A stretch of 64,000 bases of DNA, taken from Turneriella sp. (GTDB lineage: Bacteria > Spirochaetota > Leptospiria > Turneriellales > Turneriellaceae). Below are positions 12,802 through 17,216 of the stretch, piece after piece. The position numbers and the translations under genes were made by a program. Where the stretch lies: the NCBI GenBank assembly GCA_019186965.1, contig JABARV010000015.1:124001-188000 (forward strand), read 5' to 3'. Each line of letters begins with the position of its first letter. Within the stretch, counting starts at the first letter, position 1. Under the pieces are notes generated by a model. That model saw only the letters and a list, made by a program, of their open reading frames with translations. It ran no database searches and had not been told where the DNA came from.

Positions 12802-13410
12802 TTAATCTTCAAAGAGGGTTTCTACATAGAGCGTAAGTTTTAAAGCTTCTCCCTTCGAGATTTTATGTTGCGCTTGCATCGAGTGGATTAAATCTTTAAT
12901 CCTGTTTAGAGAATCGATTTCGAGCTGTGGATTTTTTTTGCGAAAAAAATCTGTCCATCTTTTGGGAGTGTCTTGGTTGCGTAACCCAAAGATGTATTGG
13001 CGCAGCAGTCTTTCGCGGATTGCAGGGATTTCTCCCGCGAGCATGTCAAGGCGCGTAAGCAATGCTTCAAGGCTGTCGGTAGAAAATTGTAAAACGTTCG
13101 TCATTTCGTTTCTTCCCCCCGAACGCGAATAGCAGTGGTAGAGCGCTTCGTCTGTATGGTAAGTAATTTTATAGATAAGCGGCCGCTCCGCCAAAAGATC
13201 GACAAAGAAAACCCAAATAATTTCGCGTCCTTCGCGCAACCCCCACGGCTTTCCTCGGCGCAAATTACCGTACTCCAAATACGTTTTATTATCGCGATGC
13301 AAACGGTGGAGGAGTTTTTTTATCGCTTTGTTAAAGCGCCTCTTAATACGCCAAATTTTAAACCAAGAAAATTTACGGTAAAAAAATTTTATCGAATTAA
13401 AAGCAGCCAC
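12802..13410 (-). CDS. Hypothetical basic protein
   Basis: The product has 202 residues, no signal peptide and a strongly basic N-terminus (FKIWRIKRRFNKAIKKLLHR). A middle region, EIIWVFFVDLLAERPLIYKI, is likely a buried beta strand pair. The C-terminal part is helical (LEALLTRLDMLAGEIPAIRE, then RIKDLIHSMQAQHKISKGEA). I do not recognise a family. It lies between the ybaB-recR pair (59 bases away) and the DUF35 gene (17 bases upstream), all on the same strand, so it may be co-transcribed with either. The start (MAAFNS) has no clear ribosome site. Confidence 0.6.
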   Translation of the reverse strand: MAAFNSIKFFYRKFSWFKIWRIKRRFNKAIKKLLHRLHRDNKTYLEYGNLRRGKPWGLREGREIIWVFFVDLLAERPLIYKITYHTDEALYHCYSRSGGRNEMTNVLQFSTDSLEALLTRLDMLAGEIPAIRERLLRQYIFGLRNQDTPKRWTDFFRKKNPQLEIDSLNRIKDLIHSMQAQHKISKGEALKLTLYVETLFED

Positions 13411-13427: not shown

Positions 13428-13916
13428 TTATTCGCCGTCATCTACTAAAGTAAAATGGCGGATTACCTTAAGCGAATCGTGTTTTTCATCCGAGAAGACT
13501 GCCTTTACCCGTGCGCCAATATAAAGGCGTGATTCATCTTTGGGAACTTCCATAAAGTGTTGGAAGTAGTTATCCGCGCCTTCGAGTTTAAAAAAACCAT
13601 ACCCATACGGAACAGGTTTTTTTTCACCCGTTTCGGGGTCTAAAAATTGGAAGCGCAAAATTGTATAGCTTACAATTTTACCATGGGTAGCTACTTCAAC
13701 GAGTTCGTGCATTTCTTTGTAGCAAGGTCCGCATACTTGGCGCGGTGGCACGTAGACTTTTTCGCAACTGGGACAACGGATACCTAAAATACGGTGGTTG
13801 TCGCGCAGCTCTCCTAAAAATTTGCTTCCATAAAGACCAACTGCATAGTGGAAAGGTTGTGCAGCTTCGCCTGACGCCATAGTAAATAAGCCTTGTTTGT
13901 TTTCTTCTGTTAACAT
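13428..13916 (-). CDS. DUF35 zinc-ribbon/OB-fold protein, partner of thiolase-fold protein (set 1)
   Basis: The 162-residue product shows the two-part DUF35 layout: an N-terminal zinc ribbon (CPSCEKVYVPPRQVCGPCY, four Cys) after a helical stretch, then an OB fold (GKIVSYTILRFQFLDPETGE, then ADNYFQHFMEV, ending LYIGARVKAVFSDE). Proteins of this family bind acyl-CoA and hold a thiolase-fold partner in an active complex, as shown for archaeal acetoacetyl-CoA thiolase/HMG-CoA synthase and for steroid side-chain aldolases. It lies 52 bases downstream of the thiolase-fold gene at 13969 on the same strand. It differs from the second copy at 16743, whose ribbon has only one Cys (see there). Confidence 0.85.
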   Translation of the reverse strand: MLTEENKQGLFTMASGEAAQPFHYAVGLYGSKFLGELRDNHRILGIRCPSCEKVYVPPRQVCGPCYKEMHELVEVATHGKIVSYTILRFQFLDPETGEKKPVPYGYGFFKLEGADNYFQHFMEVPKDESRLYIGARVKAVFSDEKHDSLKVIRHFTLVDDGE

Positions 13917-13968
13917 TTTGTCCTCTTAAAATAAAAATCTGTAGGTAGCATAAGGCGGATTAACCCCG

Positions 13969-15129
13969 TTACGGCTTTTTACTCCCAAAAAGAAGTATAT
14001 CCGACCAAAAGCAGCCGCCAAAACCTGTTGCAAGCGCGAGTTTTACTTTCCCGCCTTTAACTTGCCTTGCCTCTGCGCGGCCCTGCACTTGGAGGGTTGC
14101 CTCGGCAACGCGGATAAGTGCAGTGGCTCCGATGGGGTTACCGCATATTGGACCACCCGAGGGGTTAATGGGAAGTTCGCCTTCCATATCGGTTACGCCA
14201 TCCCATACAAGGCGTGGACCATCGCCGGGTTTGCAAAGTCCCAGTGATTCAATCCAGCTTAATCCCGCGTACGAGTAAGGTAAGTACATCTCGATTACAT
14301 CGAGTTCTTTCAACGGGTCCTTGATTCCTGTTTTTGTAAAAAGCTCTTTTGAAGCGGAGGATAGAGACTGCAAACCATCTAAAGGAACATCTGCGGTCAT
14401 TGCCCAATTGTGGCGCACTGCGGTTCCCAAAACCCACGCGGGTTTATCGCAAAGTTTTTCTGCAACTTTTTCGGCGGCAAAAACAACTGCGCATGCGCCG
14501 TCCGTGCGTGGGCACATATCGAGCCAGTGTAGGGGATCTGCAATAAGGGGCGAGCCAAGTACTTGTTTAATTGTTGTTTCCTTTTGTACATGCGCATGCG
14601 GATTATTTGCGCCATTTTTGCGGTCGCGCACGACAACACGTGCAGCGTCTTCTTTTTTGTGGTTATACCGTGCAAGGTACGCCTGTGCCTCTAGAGCAAG
14701 CCCGCCAATAGCGCCGGCAAAAACAAGGCGATCCCAAATTGGGTCGAATGCAGTCGTGATTGCAGCGGTTGTGTCCGATTCAGTATTTTTTTCCCAACCC
14801 ACGACGAGTACTTTGGAGAACATTCCCGAGGCGACAAGGTGGTAGCCCCCAATCGCAAGCGTTGTTCCCGTTGTGCCGCCAGTGGTTAGCTTTATAACGG
14901 GTTTCATTGCACCGCCTGTTCCGGGTTCTGACCATGCATCGACGTAGTTAATGCCTTCAAAGTGGTCCATGTTACCGATTACAATGGCGTCGATGTCTTT
15001 GATGGTGAGGTTACTTGCGCGAAGGGCGCGTGTTACCGCTTCTGTAATGAGTTCTTGCCCGTTTACATCGGTGCGTCCTCCGCTGTGGAATGTTTGGCCA
15101 GAGCCAATAACTGCTACGCGGCGTGCCAT
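13969..15129 (-). CDS. Thiolase-fold protein without nucleophilic Cys (copy 1)
   Basis: The 386-residue product is full length for the SCP2-thiolase family. It starts with RRVAVIGSGQTFHSGG, has WIESLGL and a C-terminal half with INPSGGPICGNPIGATAL. In catalytic thiolases a Cys is found in a CxSG-type turn near residue 85; here the turn reads TGGTTGTT, with Gly in the aligned place. The GHP motif reads GNP, so the catalytic His is also absent. The C-terminal Cys is kept in GFGGCFWSD. Ordinary thiolysis is therefore unlikely; non-decarboxylating aldolase or structural roles are alternatives. The end overlaps nothing; the start shares one base with the stop of the 129-residue helical protein upstream. 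Confidence 0.8.
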   Translation of the reverse strand: MARRVAVIGSGQTFHSGGRTDVNGQELITEAVTRALRASNLTIKDIDAIVIGNMDHFEGINYVDAWSEPGTGGAMKPVIKLTTGGTTGTTLAIGGYHLVASGMFSKVLVVGWEKNTESDTTAAITTAFDPIWDRLVFAGAIGGLALEAQAYLARYNHKKEDAARVVVRDRKNGANNPHAHVQKETTIKQVLGSPLIADPLHWLDMCPRTDGACAVVFAAEKVAEKLCDKPAWVLGTAVRHNWAMTADVPLDGLQSLSSASKELFTKTGIKDPLKELDVIEMYLPYSYAGLSWIESLGLCKPGDGPRLVWDGVTDMEGELPINPSGGPICGNPIGATALIRVAEATLQVQGRAEARQVKGGKVKLALATGFGGCFWSDILLFGSKKP

Positions 15130-15515
15130 TACTCTGCCAGCTCCCGTGCTTCGTTTAAATAATCTCGCATTGCTTGCCTCGCTTCTTCAAGTTGCGTGAA
15201 ATCAATCACTTCTTCGTAATAGGCGTCTTGATGAAAAACACCTTTCGTTAAATGGTATAATTGCCTTAACTTACGCGAACCGTGGGCGGTGTGCATAAAC
15301 ACGCGCCCGCGCTCAGATCGAGGAAATTCTTCTGCGGCGATACCGCGTGCAGAAAGTAGGCCGCGGAATGCTTCACCTACTGCAAACCAAGCTTTTGCTG
15401 CTGCTTGGCGTGCTTGTACCTTGTCGCCACTTTGGGCTGCTTTATCCAATTCGTTTTCGGCGATCGCCGCCAGGGCAGATGCTTTACCGGAATAGGGGTT
15501 TGCTATCTTTTCCAT
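15129..15515 (-). CDS. Small helical protein between the two thiolase genes (HEPN/PaREP1-like)
   Basis: I start at the ATG at 15515, right after the stop of the upstream thiolase gene; this gives 128 residues. The protein is all-helical: ALAAIAENELDKAAQSGDKV, AAAKAWFAVGEAFRGLLSAR, then SRKLRQLYHLTKGV and ending YLNEARELAE. The AWxAVxEAxRGLL helix and the following pair resemble HEPN-type/PaREP1 proteins, which are small helical dimers of mostly unknown function. There is no clear RxxxxH nuclease motif. Its placement inside a thiolase-DUF35 operon, coupled to both neighbours, suggests a subunit or regulator of that complex. This is an inference from position. Confidence 0.6.
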   Translation of the reverse strand: MEKIANPYSGKASALAAIAENELDKAAQSGDKVQARQAAAKAWFAVGEAFRGLLSARGIAAEEFPRSERGRVFMHTAHGSRKLRQLYHLTKGVFHQDAYYEEVIDFTQLEEARQAMRDYLNEARELAE

Positions 15516-15517
15516 CG

Positions 15518-16675
15518 TTATTTCTCGCGGCTTAGCACCCATACACAGTGCGATTGTGCGCATGGGCCGTTGATACCGTGCGCTAAGGCGGTGTTAATTT
15601 TTTTCTTCACTTGCCGCTCTCCAGCGTCACCGCGAATTTGCAGAGCAGCTTCTATTATTCGTATTAAACCTGCTGCAATAACCGTGTGCGCAGAAAGGCA
15701 TCCCCCCGAGGCATTTACGGGTAAACGCCCTGTCGCTTGTGTTATTCCGCTGCGGAGGAAATCCGCGCCTTTGCCTTCTTTGCAAAACCCCAAACCTTCG
15801 TACCACATAAGCTCCATGTAGCTAAACGCGTCGTAAACTTCAGCTAGTTGGATTTCGTCTTTTGCAGATTTAATCCCCGCCATTTTATACGCAGTTTTCG
15901 CTGCGCTTTTTAACGCAGGAGAACGAGCTAAGTCGCGCAACCCTAAATCGTATGCATCGGAACAAAAACCAGCGCCTTTTACGTAAACAGGCTTTGCTTT
16001 CCCGCCTTTAAGCTTTTTTGTAAATGCGTCACCCGAGATAAGGATTGCCGCAGCACCATCGGAGATGGGGGAGATGTCGTAGAGTTTTAAAGGGTCAGCA
16101 TATTTTTTGGAACGCATTACGTCTTCGATAGTTAAATCCTTGGCGATTTGTGCATTTGGATTTTTGAGAGCGTTTTTATGGTTTTTAACAGAGACGGCTG
16201 CTAAATCTTCTTCTTTGATGTTAAACGTGTGCATGTAACTTTGTGCTTGTAGGGCAGCGGAGGTAATGTTGTCAAGTCCCAAGGGGCGCGTGAAAATGGG
16301 TTCAAACATTCCGTTGGTAATAAGGTTTGTATCGCTTTCAGAACCTTTGCTGTGCGCGACAACAAGGGTGTTTTTGTACGAACCGGATAAAATACGCGCC
16401 ATTGCATAATACGCGCCAAAGGTGCCATCACCTTCGACGGTAGAAACATTTTTTTCAAATGCCCCCGCTGCGTCTTGTACAGCCATAGACGAAATGGTGC
16501 GGCCGTCCCAAAAGTCATTGGAGACTGTAATAACGTTGTCGACGTCTTTAATGTCGATCCCTGCATCGTTTAGCGCAAGTTGGGTTGCTTCGTACACCAT
16601 TTCGGCAAAATTTTGGTGTTTTTTGTTTCGCTCTTGTTTTGTTTGGCCAACGCCAATGATTGCAATTTTTTTCAT
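15518..16675 (-). CDS. Thiolase-fold protein without nucleophilic Cys (copy 2)
   Basis: The 385-residue product begins KKIAIIGVGQTKQERNKKHQ and has the same architecture as copy 1, sharing DIKDVDNVI near residue 41 and the acid-aromatic YDAFSYMELMWYEGLG near residue 290. At the nucleophile position the sequence is STVEGDGTFGAYYAMA: no Cys, Gly in the aligned place. At the GHP position it reads SGGCLSAHTVIAAGL, keeping a His but not the Pro. C-terminal Cys residues are present (NGPCAQSHC). As the two copies have diverged strongly, they probably form a heteromer, like acetyl-CoA acetyltransferase-type subunits paired with DUF35 proteins. Substrate unknown. Its partner DUF35 gene lies 67 bases upstream. 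Confidence 0.8.
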   Translation of the reverse strand: MKKIAIIGVGQTKQERNKKHQNFAEMVYEATQLALNDAGIDIKDVDNVITVSNDFWDGRTISSMAVQDAAGAFEKNVSTVEGDGTFGAYYAMARILSGSYKNTLVVAHSKGSESDTNLITNGMFEPIFTRPLGLDNITSAALQAQSYMHTFNIKEEDLAAVSVKNHKNALKNPNAQIAKDLTIEDVMRSKKYADPLKLYDISPISDGAAAILISGDAFTKKLKGGKAKPVYVKGAGFCSDAYDLGLRDLARSPALKSAAKTAYKMAGIKSAKDEIQLAEVYDAFSYMELMWYEGLGFCKEGKGADFLRSGITQATGRLPVNASGGCLSAHTVIAAGLIRIIEAALQIRGDAGERQVKKKINTALAHGINGPCAQSHCVWVLSREK

Positions 16676-16742
16676 ATTGTTCCTGTTTATTCATTATTAT
16701 TGTAGAGGCGCATTGGTTGGTTCATTCTACCGTGGTGCGTCC

Positions 16743-17216
16743 CTACGATGCACTCCCTTCTGTGGGTTTGAAATACATAATATCTAGAATGTGTCCTGTA
16801 CGTTCTTCGCGAAAAACTGCTTTGACACGCATGCCTACATGGATTTGGGAGAAATCCACCTCCCCCAAAAAATGCGGTATGGCCTGTGTCGCCCCGTCGA
16901 GCAAAACAAGTGCGTAGATACGTGGTAAATCTTTTGGCGCTGCTGCACTTTCGTAGTGGCGTTGTGTAAATGCCATTACTTTACCGGTTCCGTCGAGTGT
17001 CAAAAATTCGGTAATGGGTTCGAGTGTCGTAGGAGAATTTAGTTTGGGCGGAACAAAAACTTTACCTGTTTTAGGGCATTTGTTTGCGAGAATTTTTTTT
17101 TCGTCGCGTAGTGTACGTAAAAACTTGGAACCTGTTTCTCCCACAGCCCAAGTATAAGGAACCTTTATTTTACTGTGGTGGATAAGGGGGATAGTCTTGG
17201 TGCGCCAATCGTTCAT
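16743..17216 (-). CDS. DUF35 OB-fold protein with reduced zinc ribbon (set 2)
   Basis: The 157-residue product follows the same plan as the gene at 13428: an N-terminal helix (VGETGSKFLRTLRDEKKILA, matching GSKFLGELRDNHRIL of the other copy), a ribbon region NKCPKTGKVFVPPKLNSP, and an OB fold (GKVMAFTQRHYESAAAPK, ending IHVGMRVKAVFREERTGH). Three of the four zinc-binding Cys are missing here, so the ribbon cannot hold zinc in the usual way, while the OB fold is intact. It begins the cluster; an 115-base gap separates it from the divergent adenylate cyclase gene. Confidence 0.82.
   Translation of the reverse strand: MNDWRTKTIPLIHHSKIKVPYTWAVGETGSKFLRTLRDEKKILANKCPKTGKVFVPPKLNSPTTLEPITEFLTLDGTGKVMAFTQRHYESAAAPKDLPRIYALVLLDGATQAIPHFLGEVDFSQIHVGMRVKAVFREERTGHILDIMYFKPTEGSAS

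Follow-up and report, generated by a model that had tools for sequence, protein, structure and literature searches.

Within a window of 64,000 nucleotides (nt) from a Turneriella genome (contig JABARV010000015.1; by window we mean the whole stretch of DNA that was analysed), four genes on the minus strand encode two thiolase-fold proteins, here called T1 and T2, and two smaller proteins with DUF35 domains, DUF35a and DUF35b. Pfam relates the first two to Thiolase_N/Thiolase_C_1 and the others to zf-ChsH2/OB_ChsH2_C. Read 5' to 3' along the minus strand, the order of this quartet is DUF35a, T2, T1 and DUF35b, with a small open reading frame (ORF) between T2 and T1; the features are collected in Table 1. 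Neither thiolase-fold protein has the nucleophilic cysteine of the thiolases, and we shall argue that the quartet is probably a heteromeric retro-aldolase.

Table 1. The quartet and its principal residues, in positions of the window
Feature	Position	Strand	Evidence
DUF35a, zinc-ribbon/OB-fold protein, 157 residues; three of four ribbon Cys gone	16743..17216	-	Pfam OB_ChsH2_C 43.9 bits; zf-ChsH2 17.1 bits, under cut-off
T2, thiolase-fold protein, 385 residues, Ltp4-side clade; nucleophile loop without Cys	15518..16675	-	Thiolase_C_1 139 bits; AlphaFold2 pLDDT (predicted local distance difference test) 92.5; Foldseek; tree clade 100/99
T2 D83-G84, place of nucleophile Cys	16424..16429	-	D in 78/88 and G in 73/88 homologues; alignment with PDB thiolases
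T2 Y281 (YDAF), position of Ltp2/Sal catalytic Tyr; variable in the family	15833..15835	-	45 Tyr, 25 Ser, 7 His of 88
T1, thiolase-fold protein, 386 residues, Ltp3-side clade; likely catalytic subunit	13969..15129	-	Thiolase_C_1 81 bits; PRK08313 340 bits (under cut-off, 514); AlphaFold2 pLDDT 91.3; tree clade 100/99
T1 G85, replaces nucleophile Cys	14875..14877	-	Gly 97/97; aligned with Cys of 6esq, 7yvy, 7pxp, 6hsj
T1 Y282, aligned with catalytic Tyr of TcLtp2 (YDHF) and CtSal (YDCY)	14284..14286	-	Tyr 89/97; catalytic role per PMC12329534
T1 N331, replaces GHP His (Tyr in TcLtp2, Gln in CtSal)	14137..14139	-	Asn 89/97; alignment
DUF35b, zinc-ribbon/OB-fold protein, 162 residues, all four ribbon Cys	13428..13916	-	Pfam OB_ChsH2_C and zf-ChsH2 above cut-off; at least 4 Cys in 76/77 related copies

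An initial annotation, made from the letters of the sequence, held that both thiolase-fold proteins have Gly where the nucleophile Cys is needed. This was examined by alignment with solved structures and by residue counts over 97 homologues of T1 and 88 of T2. For T1 the claim holds: Gly85 aligns, without gaps, with the nucleophile Cys of solved thiolases and is invariant in the family. The accompanying observation, that GNP stands in place of the GHP motif, is also correct, as Asn331 replaces its His, and the His of HDCF has gone as well. Glu280 is retained in all 97 homologues. The loop V80-E-G-D-G84 of T2 likewise contains no Cys in the window protein under any alignment. The equivalence of Gly84 is less sure than that of Gly85 in T1 because three residues are missing from the following helix; the place of the Cys falls on Gly84 if the alignment is guided by the preceding strand and on Glu81 if it is guided by the helix alone. 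In the AlphaFold2 models this helix starts at residue 84 in T2 and at residue 87 in T1. Glu81 as a replacement nucleophile was ruled out, since only 47 of the 88 T2 proteins have it and the shift corresponds to the three-residue deletion. At the GHP position the T2 protein of the window still has a His, His330 (AHT); His is found there in 37 and Asn in 42 of the homologues. An unrecognised Cys at the nucleophile position, which the initial annotation named as evidence that would overturn it, was found in neither protein of the window.

In the alignment, the Cys-containing thiolases (6esq, 7yvy, 7pxp, 6hsj and two others encoded in the genome of the window, L001 and L003) have the nucleophile Cys, the His of HD[CA]F and the His of GHP. 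The latter two proteins served as a positive control and retain Cys, HDCF and GHP. A different pattern is seen in the DUF35-associated aldolases: at the nucleophile, Tyr and GHP places, TcLtp2 has Gly/Tyr/Tyr and CtSal has Gly/Tyr/Gln, to be compared with Gly85/Tyr282/Asn331 in T1 and Gly84/Tyr281/His330 in T2. At each of the three positions T1 thus goes with both aldolases (Gly, Tyr, non-His), and at none with the Cys-thiolases. Tyr282 of T1 and Tyr281 of T2 align with the catalytic Tyr (Tyr294/Tyr302) of the aldolase YD motif. The proton donor of these aldolases, Tyr344 in TcLtp2 or Cys304 in CtSal, has no counterpart, the corresponding residues being Asn331/Pro284 in T1 and His330/Ala283 in T2. 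Among 25 thiolase-like proteins that belong to neither T1 nor T2, Gly at the nucleophile place goes with Tyr at the 282 place in nine of nine, and Cys goes with His/His in 11 of 14 (the sequences are related, and this is a check and not a formal test). When T1 is compared with its counterpart in a congener, the ratio of non-synonymous to synonymous substitution rates comes to about 0.05. In all four genes the proportion of differing non-synonymous sites is far below that of synonymous sites, which are near saturation in the three genes other than T1; the missing Cys is therefore the result of neither chance nor decay.

Some divergent T1 proteins have the sequence TCGSTG, in which a Cys immediately precedes the invariant Gly (L095 8995–10164, L096 4083–5324, L098 4014–5177, L099, L101 and L106 1398–2603). 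Such proteins may stand midway between the thiolases and the aldolases, or may make use of that Cys.

DUF35 proteins (PF01796/PF12172) combine an OB fold with a four-Cys, rubredoxin-like zinc ribbon. DUF35b has both; DUF35a has the OB domain and a ribbon, below the model cut-off, that retains one Cys of four, so that the earlier statement that one partner has lost three of its zinc ligands is borne out. The loss in DUF35a is lineage-specific, at least four Cys being present in 73 of 77 related copies. Comparable inequality occurs elsewhere: in an actinobacterial protein with two fused DUF35 domains the first has no ribbon Cys and the second three or four, a leptospiral single DUF35 has one Cys, and in a relative the copy that is fused to a ligase fits the zinc-ribbon model. 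It seems that one zinc-bearing and one zinc-less DUF35 per complex is tolerated or favoured. In Shy–Sal (PMC11321319) and CtSal (PMC12329534), DUF35 acts as a docking domain between the preceding enzyme and the aldolase.

Searching species genomes with T1 gave 79 loci, and statistics of gene order were drawn from the 59 not cut by a contig end. The loci span Spirochaetota, Deltaproteobacteria (Desulfosarcina alkanivorans and Desulfatibacillum alkenivorans), Actinomycetota, Chloroflexota, metagenome-assembled genomes of Acidobacteria type, Lokiarchaeota and Jordarchaeia. T2 adjoins T1 in 58 of the 59, and two DUF35 copies are present in 57 (one fused pair being counted); the commonest orders, with D for DUF35, are D-T2-T1-D (33) and T2-T1-D-D (28). 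The set T2-T1-DUF35-DUF35 is a conserved module in two domains of life and not a case of local decay. In the class to which the window belongs, the T1/T2 pair is patchily distributed, and where there are strong matches those to T1 and T2 lie side by side. No previous account of the four-gene module in organisms other than actinobacteria was found in a literature search; a match on a Cupriavidus plasmid is without annotation.

The coupling of the genes, on which the initial annotation relied, was right in that all four lie on the minus strand where it placed them, but it missed the intervening ORF (15129–15515, minus strand, 128 residues), owing to which T2 and T1 are not adjacent. This ORF starts 2 nt past the T2 stop, its own stop overlaps the T1 start, and it has a weak likeness to PaREP1 (21 bits, under the cut-off). 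It was not found at the T2/T1 junction in the relatives examined, and copies exist elsewhere in the genome of the window (G000:C9) and in a congener (G004:C108); for these reasons it looks like a strain-specific mobile gene inserted into the operon, and its candidacy as a fifth component was rejected.

The initial annotation had called for a phylogeny of both copies. In a tree of 60 proteins (LG+C20), T1, T2 and the two jointly each form a clade with support of 100/99 with respect to ten references, and two actinobacterial pairs fall inside these clades, their Ltp3-like proteins grouping with T1 and their Ltp4-like proteins with T2. PRK08313 is the highest-scoring NCBIfam model for T1 as well as for T2, in each case short of its cut-off; no members of PRK07855 above its cut-off were found in the genomes tried. 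PRK08313 and PRK07937 fit the actinobacterial branch, and on a Tsukamurella plasmid (L108) the thiolase-fold pair matches PRK07937 and PRK08313 well above cut-off. The third gene of that locus encodes two fused DUF35 domains, an arrangement also found in L110, and its neighbours (an AMP-binding ligase, a crotonase, an F420-dependent oxidoreductase, a P450 and a steroid 3-ketoacyl-CoA thiolase; CoA, coenzyme A) mark a steroid cluster. Judging by this locus, PRK08313 is presumably the Ltp3 family and PRK07937 the Ltp4 family; the double-DUF35 protein is, on the same footing, presumably Rv3521.

In Mycobacterium tuberculosis, Rv3521 (a conserved hypothetical protein), Rv3522 (ltp4) and Rv3523 (ltp3) are neighbours and are listed together with fadD19 and echA19 (PMC6429209). 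Ltp3-Ltp4 is described, in a review (PMC6678751), as a heteromeric aldol-lyase that splits the C24–C25 bond of branched sterol side chains; other papers agree on this role, and Ltp3 and Ltp4 are reported to be essential for a chemical step. No steroid genes were seen beside the quartet in the window, and no KshA domain was found in its genome (other steroid genes were not searched for). On this ground steroid degradation in this genome was set aside, and a steroid role of the quartet is unlikely. Judged by its sequences, the quartet appears to be a non-steroid branch of the Ltp3-Ltp4 kind: the thiolase-fold genes and two DUF35 domains are neighbours as in that system, with one subunit from each clade, and the place in sterol catabolism, a matter of context and not of the enzyme itself, is what it lacks.

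The neighbours of the module in relatives are also informative. The commonest clusters among the 79 loci are acyl-CoA dehydrogenase (34), AMP-binding ligase (27) and enoyl-CoA hydratase (22), followed by CoA-transferase subunits (14 and 8) and, in 10 loci, a MaoC-type protein. One spirochaete relative (L122) has its genes arranged as T2-T1-DUF35-[ligase fused to DUF35]-MaoC-acyl-CoA dehydrogenase. Another locus (L125) is a single long gene run in which the quartet is accompanied by two MaoC hydratases, two acyl-CoA dehydrogenases, a CoA-transferase pair, a ligase and a crotonase. The run also includes a second T2-T1 pair, whose DUF35s are fused to a β-keto acid cleavage enzyme (BKACE) and, as judged from the similar L029, to an SCP2 domain. 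Neither L122 nor L125 was seen to have a 3-hydroxyacyl-CoA dehydrogenase. A series in which activation, dehydrogenation and hydration lead to cleavage with no keto intermediate is what a retro-aldolase needs.

Several further observations concern these surroundings. The ligase with a C-terminal DUF35 fusion lies beside T2-T1-DUF35 at L122 8129–10135 and L123 8382–10370. Second T2-T1 pairs with DUF35-SCP2 lipid-binding and DUF35-BKACE fusions occur at L029 2684–5313 and also in L030–L032, L034, L038, L105 and L125. Directly downstream of DUF35b lies a protein family of 264–300 residues without a Pfam match (L037 10646–11512, L125 5278–6069), the cluster of which occurs in 12 of the 79 loci, on the same strand. 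In the window, the corresponding place is taken by an ORF of 202 residues (12802–13410, minus strand) with no Pfam or NCBIfam match, which was not found in the short loci of near relatives. A further thiolase-fold protein of the window, outside the quartet, has 505 residues and is matched by PF22691 (43498–45015, minus strand).

Taken with analogy to the characterized aldolases, these data lead us to regard the quartet as probably a DUF35-assembled heteromeric retro-aldolase (aldol-lyase) of the Ltp3-Ltp4 kind, acting on β-hydroxyacyl-CoAs, with T1 as the likely catalytic subunit. T2, the more degenerate of the two, may be a non-catalytic partner. T1 and T2 would form the two thiolase-fold subunits, and both DUF35 proteins would bind at the periphery and hold the assembly together. 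A CoA ligase, together with an acyl-CoA dehydrogenase and an enoyl-CoA hydratase, would furnish the β-hydroxyacyl-CoA substrate. Tyr282 of T1 would then act as base on the β-hydroxyl, in place of oxidation of that hydroxyl and cleavage by CoA and Cys; Gly85, like Gly89 of CtSal, would leave room, and offer a backbone contact, where thiolases have their Cys, and Asn331 would lie on the side of the proton donor. Splitting of the Cα–Cβ bond would release a short acyl-CoA together with either a ketone or an aldehyde, and T2 would remain as a conserved partner with a less constrained active site of its own. The substrates would belong to the CoA-activated fatty or branched acids and would probably be β-branched; a retro-aldolase suits β-branched acids because their tertiary hydroxyl is not oxidisable.

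A number of points weigh against this proposal. In the genome of the window the quartet has no operon link to a ligase, dehydrogenase or hydratase. Ltp2, Sal and 4u4e form a separate clade (100/99) with T1 and T2 outside it, and T1 is only 24% identical to Ltp2 and 22% to Sal; at that distance the shared Gly and Tyr could be convergent and accompany a different reaction. The scores of T1 with PRK08313 (Table 1) and of T2 with PRK07937 (187 against 419 bits) fall short of the NCBIfam cut-offs. The assignment of Ltp3-Ltp4 in the literature is genetic and not biochemical, and in M. neoaurum knock-out of either gene did not abolish the formation of 4-HBC, which is a different step.

It is known that other condensing-enzyme folds in which the Cys has been replaced decarboxylate malonyl-type esters, and the same Cys-less site could in principle serve to form C–C bonds in the aldol direction or to decarboxylate a malonyl-type CoA ester. 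The slow decarboxylation of malonyl-CoA by the Cys-less thiolase-fold protein TbSLP would be in keeping with this, as would the service of DUF35 in a synthetic enzyme, PhlABC. We nevertheless think it unlikely: CtSal shares the Gly/Tyr pattern and does not decarboxylate malonyl-CoA (PMC12329534), PhlC requires its Cys88, and the neighbours in relatives (CoA ligase, acyl-CoA dehydrogenases, hydratases, CoA-transferases) are catabolic. A non-catalytic scaffold for acyl-CoA or lipid binding, in which both thiolase-fold subunits are dead and DUF35 docks other enzymes, deserves about as little credence. The DUF35 fusions in related operons to CoA ligase, SCP2 lipid-binding domain and BKACE, and the variable Tyr position of T2, could be read in its favour, but Gly85, Glu280, Tyr282 and Asn331 of T1 hardly vary across two domains of life, a constraint beyond the needs of a scaffold, and the reported requirement for Ltp3 and Ltp4 is for a chemical step. 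The initial annotation had supposed that the four proteins form a hetero-oligomer that serves as aldolase or scaffold and not for ordinary thiolysis. The joint conservation of the four components, with T2 beside T1, the orthology with Ltp3/Ltp4, the published description of that pair and the Gly/Tyr/non-His pattern favour the aldolase over a mere scaffold, and the scaffold idea may be right in part, perhaps for T2.

That T2, or both T1 and T2, should be catalytic by way of Tyr281 and His330 is suggested by the residues of the window protein, but it is very improbable given that only 45 of 88 homologues have the Tyr and that His shares the GHP place with Asn. SCP2-type thiolases use an unusual second Cys, and Cys206 of T1 is kept in 94 of 97 homologues, but we give scarcely any weight to an ordinary thiolase with this or another Cys as nucleophile, as BbsB and zebrafish SCP2-thiolase, both with a normal nucleophile Cys, likewise have Cys at the place of Cys206 (four residues ahead of the DG in the DGA motif), and T1 has lost the GHP and HDCF His residues that serve a Cys.

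If the retro-aldolase reading is right, its implications are broader than the window. Ltp3-Ltp4 has so far been discussed only as an actinobacterial sterol side-chain enzyme, and has no biochemical characterization in the literature searched. The new point is that of a wider four-part module, with Ltp3-Ltp4 as one branch of it, found in spirochaetes, sulfate reducers, Chloroflexota and Asgard archaea, which would make what looked like a peculiarity of steroid metabolism a general reaction in the breakdown of acyl-CoAs and a candidate route for the breakdown of β-branched acids without 3-ketoacyl thiolysis. Among the genes that bear the annotation acetyl-CoA acetyltransferase or thiolase, many cannot encode thiolases, and the module offers a clear case of DUF35 as an exchangeable docking domain. 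A bolder and rather doubtful version would see in it a pan-prokaryotic, non-steroid machine for C–C cleavage of β-branched acyl-CoAs in anaerobes, Asgard archaea and aerobes, with T1 as the sole catalytic subunit, T2 as a conserved pseudo-thiolase and the DUF35s as docking ports of unequal kind (in several lineages one carries zinc and the other does not), on which CoA ligase, SCP2 and BKACE replace one another in the course of evolution.

Foldseek matches the predicted structures to the archaeal thiolase/HMG-CoA synthase complex, Pyrococcus thiolase, BbsB, PhlC, Sal-Shy(DUF35) and Ltp2-ChsH2(DUF35). The archaeal thiolase/HMG-CoA synthase/DUF35 complex (6esq), which is the best match of both T1 and T2, and PhlABC resemble the quartet in having two different thiolase-superfamily subunits held by DUF35. 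However, the thiolase (and PhlC) subunit retains its Cys and the second subunit is HMG-CoA synthase-like and not a sister of the thiolase; because of the retained Cys, the archaeal complex is the less apt of the models that the initial annotation named. The 2-benzoylsuccinyl-CoA thiolase BbsA-BbsB (7pxp) also pairs a DUF35 with a thiolase-fold protein, but BbsB has Cys, His and GHP and is a real thiolase. Membership of the quartet in either of these families was ruled out by the missing Cys and the tree.

The DUF35-bound retro-aldolase Sal-Shy (9myr) shares with T1 the Gly for Cys and has Tyr302 at the place of Tyr282, but it is a homodimer, and its second catalytic residue, Cys304 (YDCY), is missing from T1 (YLPY) and T2 (YDAF). 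Ltp2-ChsH2 (6ok1), another aldolase with a thiolase fold bound to DUF35, has Gly for Cys, the catalytic Tyr at the same place and a non-His residue at GHP; it differs in being a homodimer of one thiolase-fold subunit from a separate clade, with its DUF35 fused to a MaoC hydratase. The steroid sequence of ChsE, ChsH1-ChsH2 and Ltp2 is mirrored by the ligase/dehydrogenase/hydratase/quartet operons of relatives. Closest is Ltp3-Ltp4 (Rv3523-Rv3522) with its double-DUF35 protein in actinobacterial sterol catabolism. In the window each DUF35 has a gene of its own, and the thiolase-fold pair shows no more than distant similarity to that of the actinobacteria; no KshA was found in the genome, and there is no steroid cluster. 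Common to both are a pair of thiolase-fold proteins, one from each clade and each without the nucleophile Cys, and two DUF35 domains alongside (fused in the Tsukamurella and Streptomyces loci), with a ligase and a crotonase nearby in the actinobacterial case.

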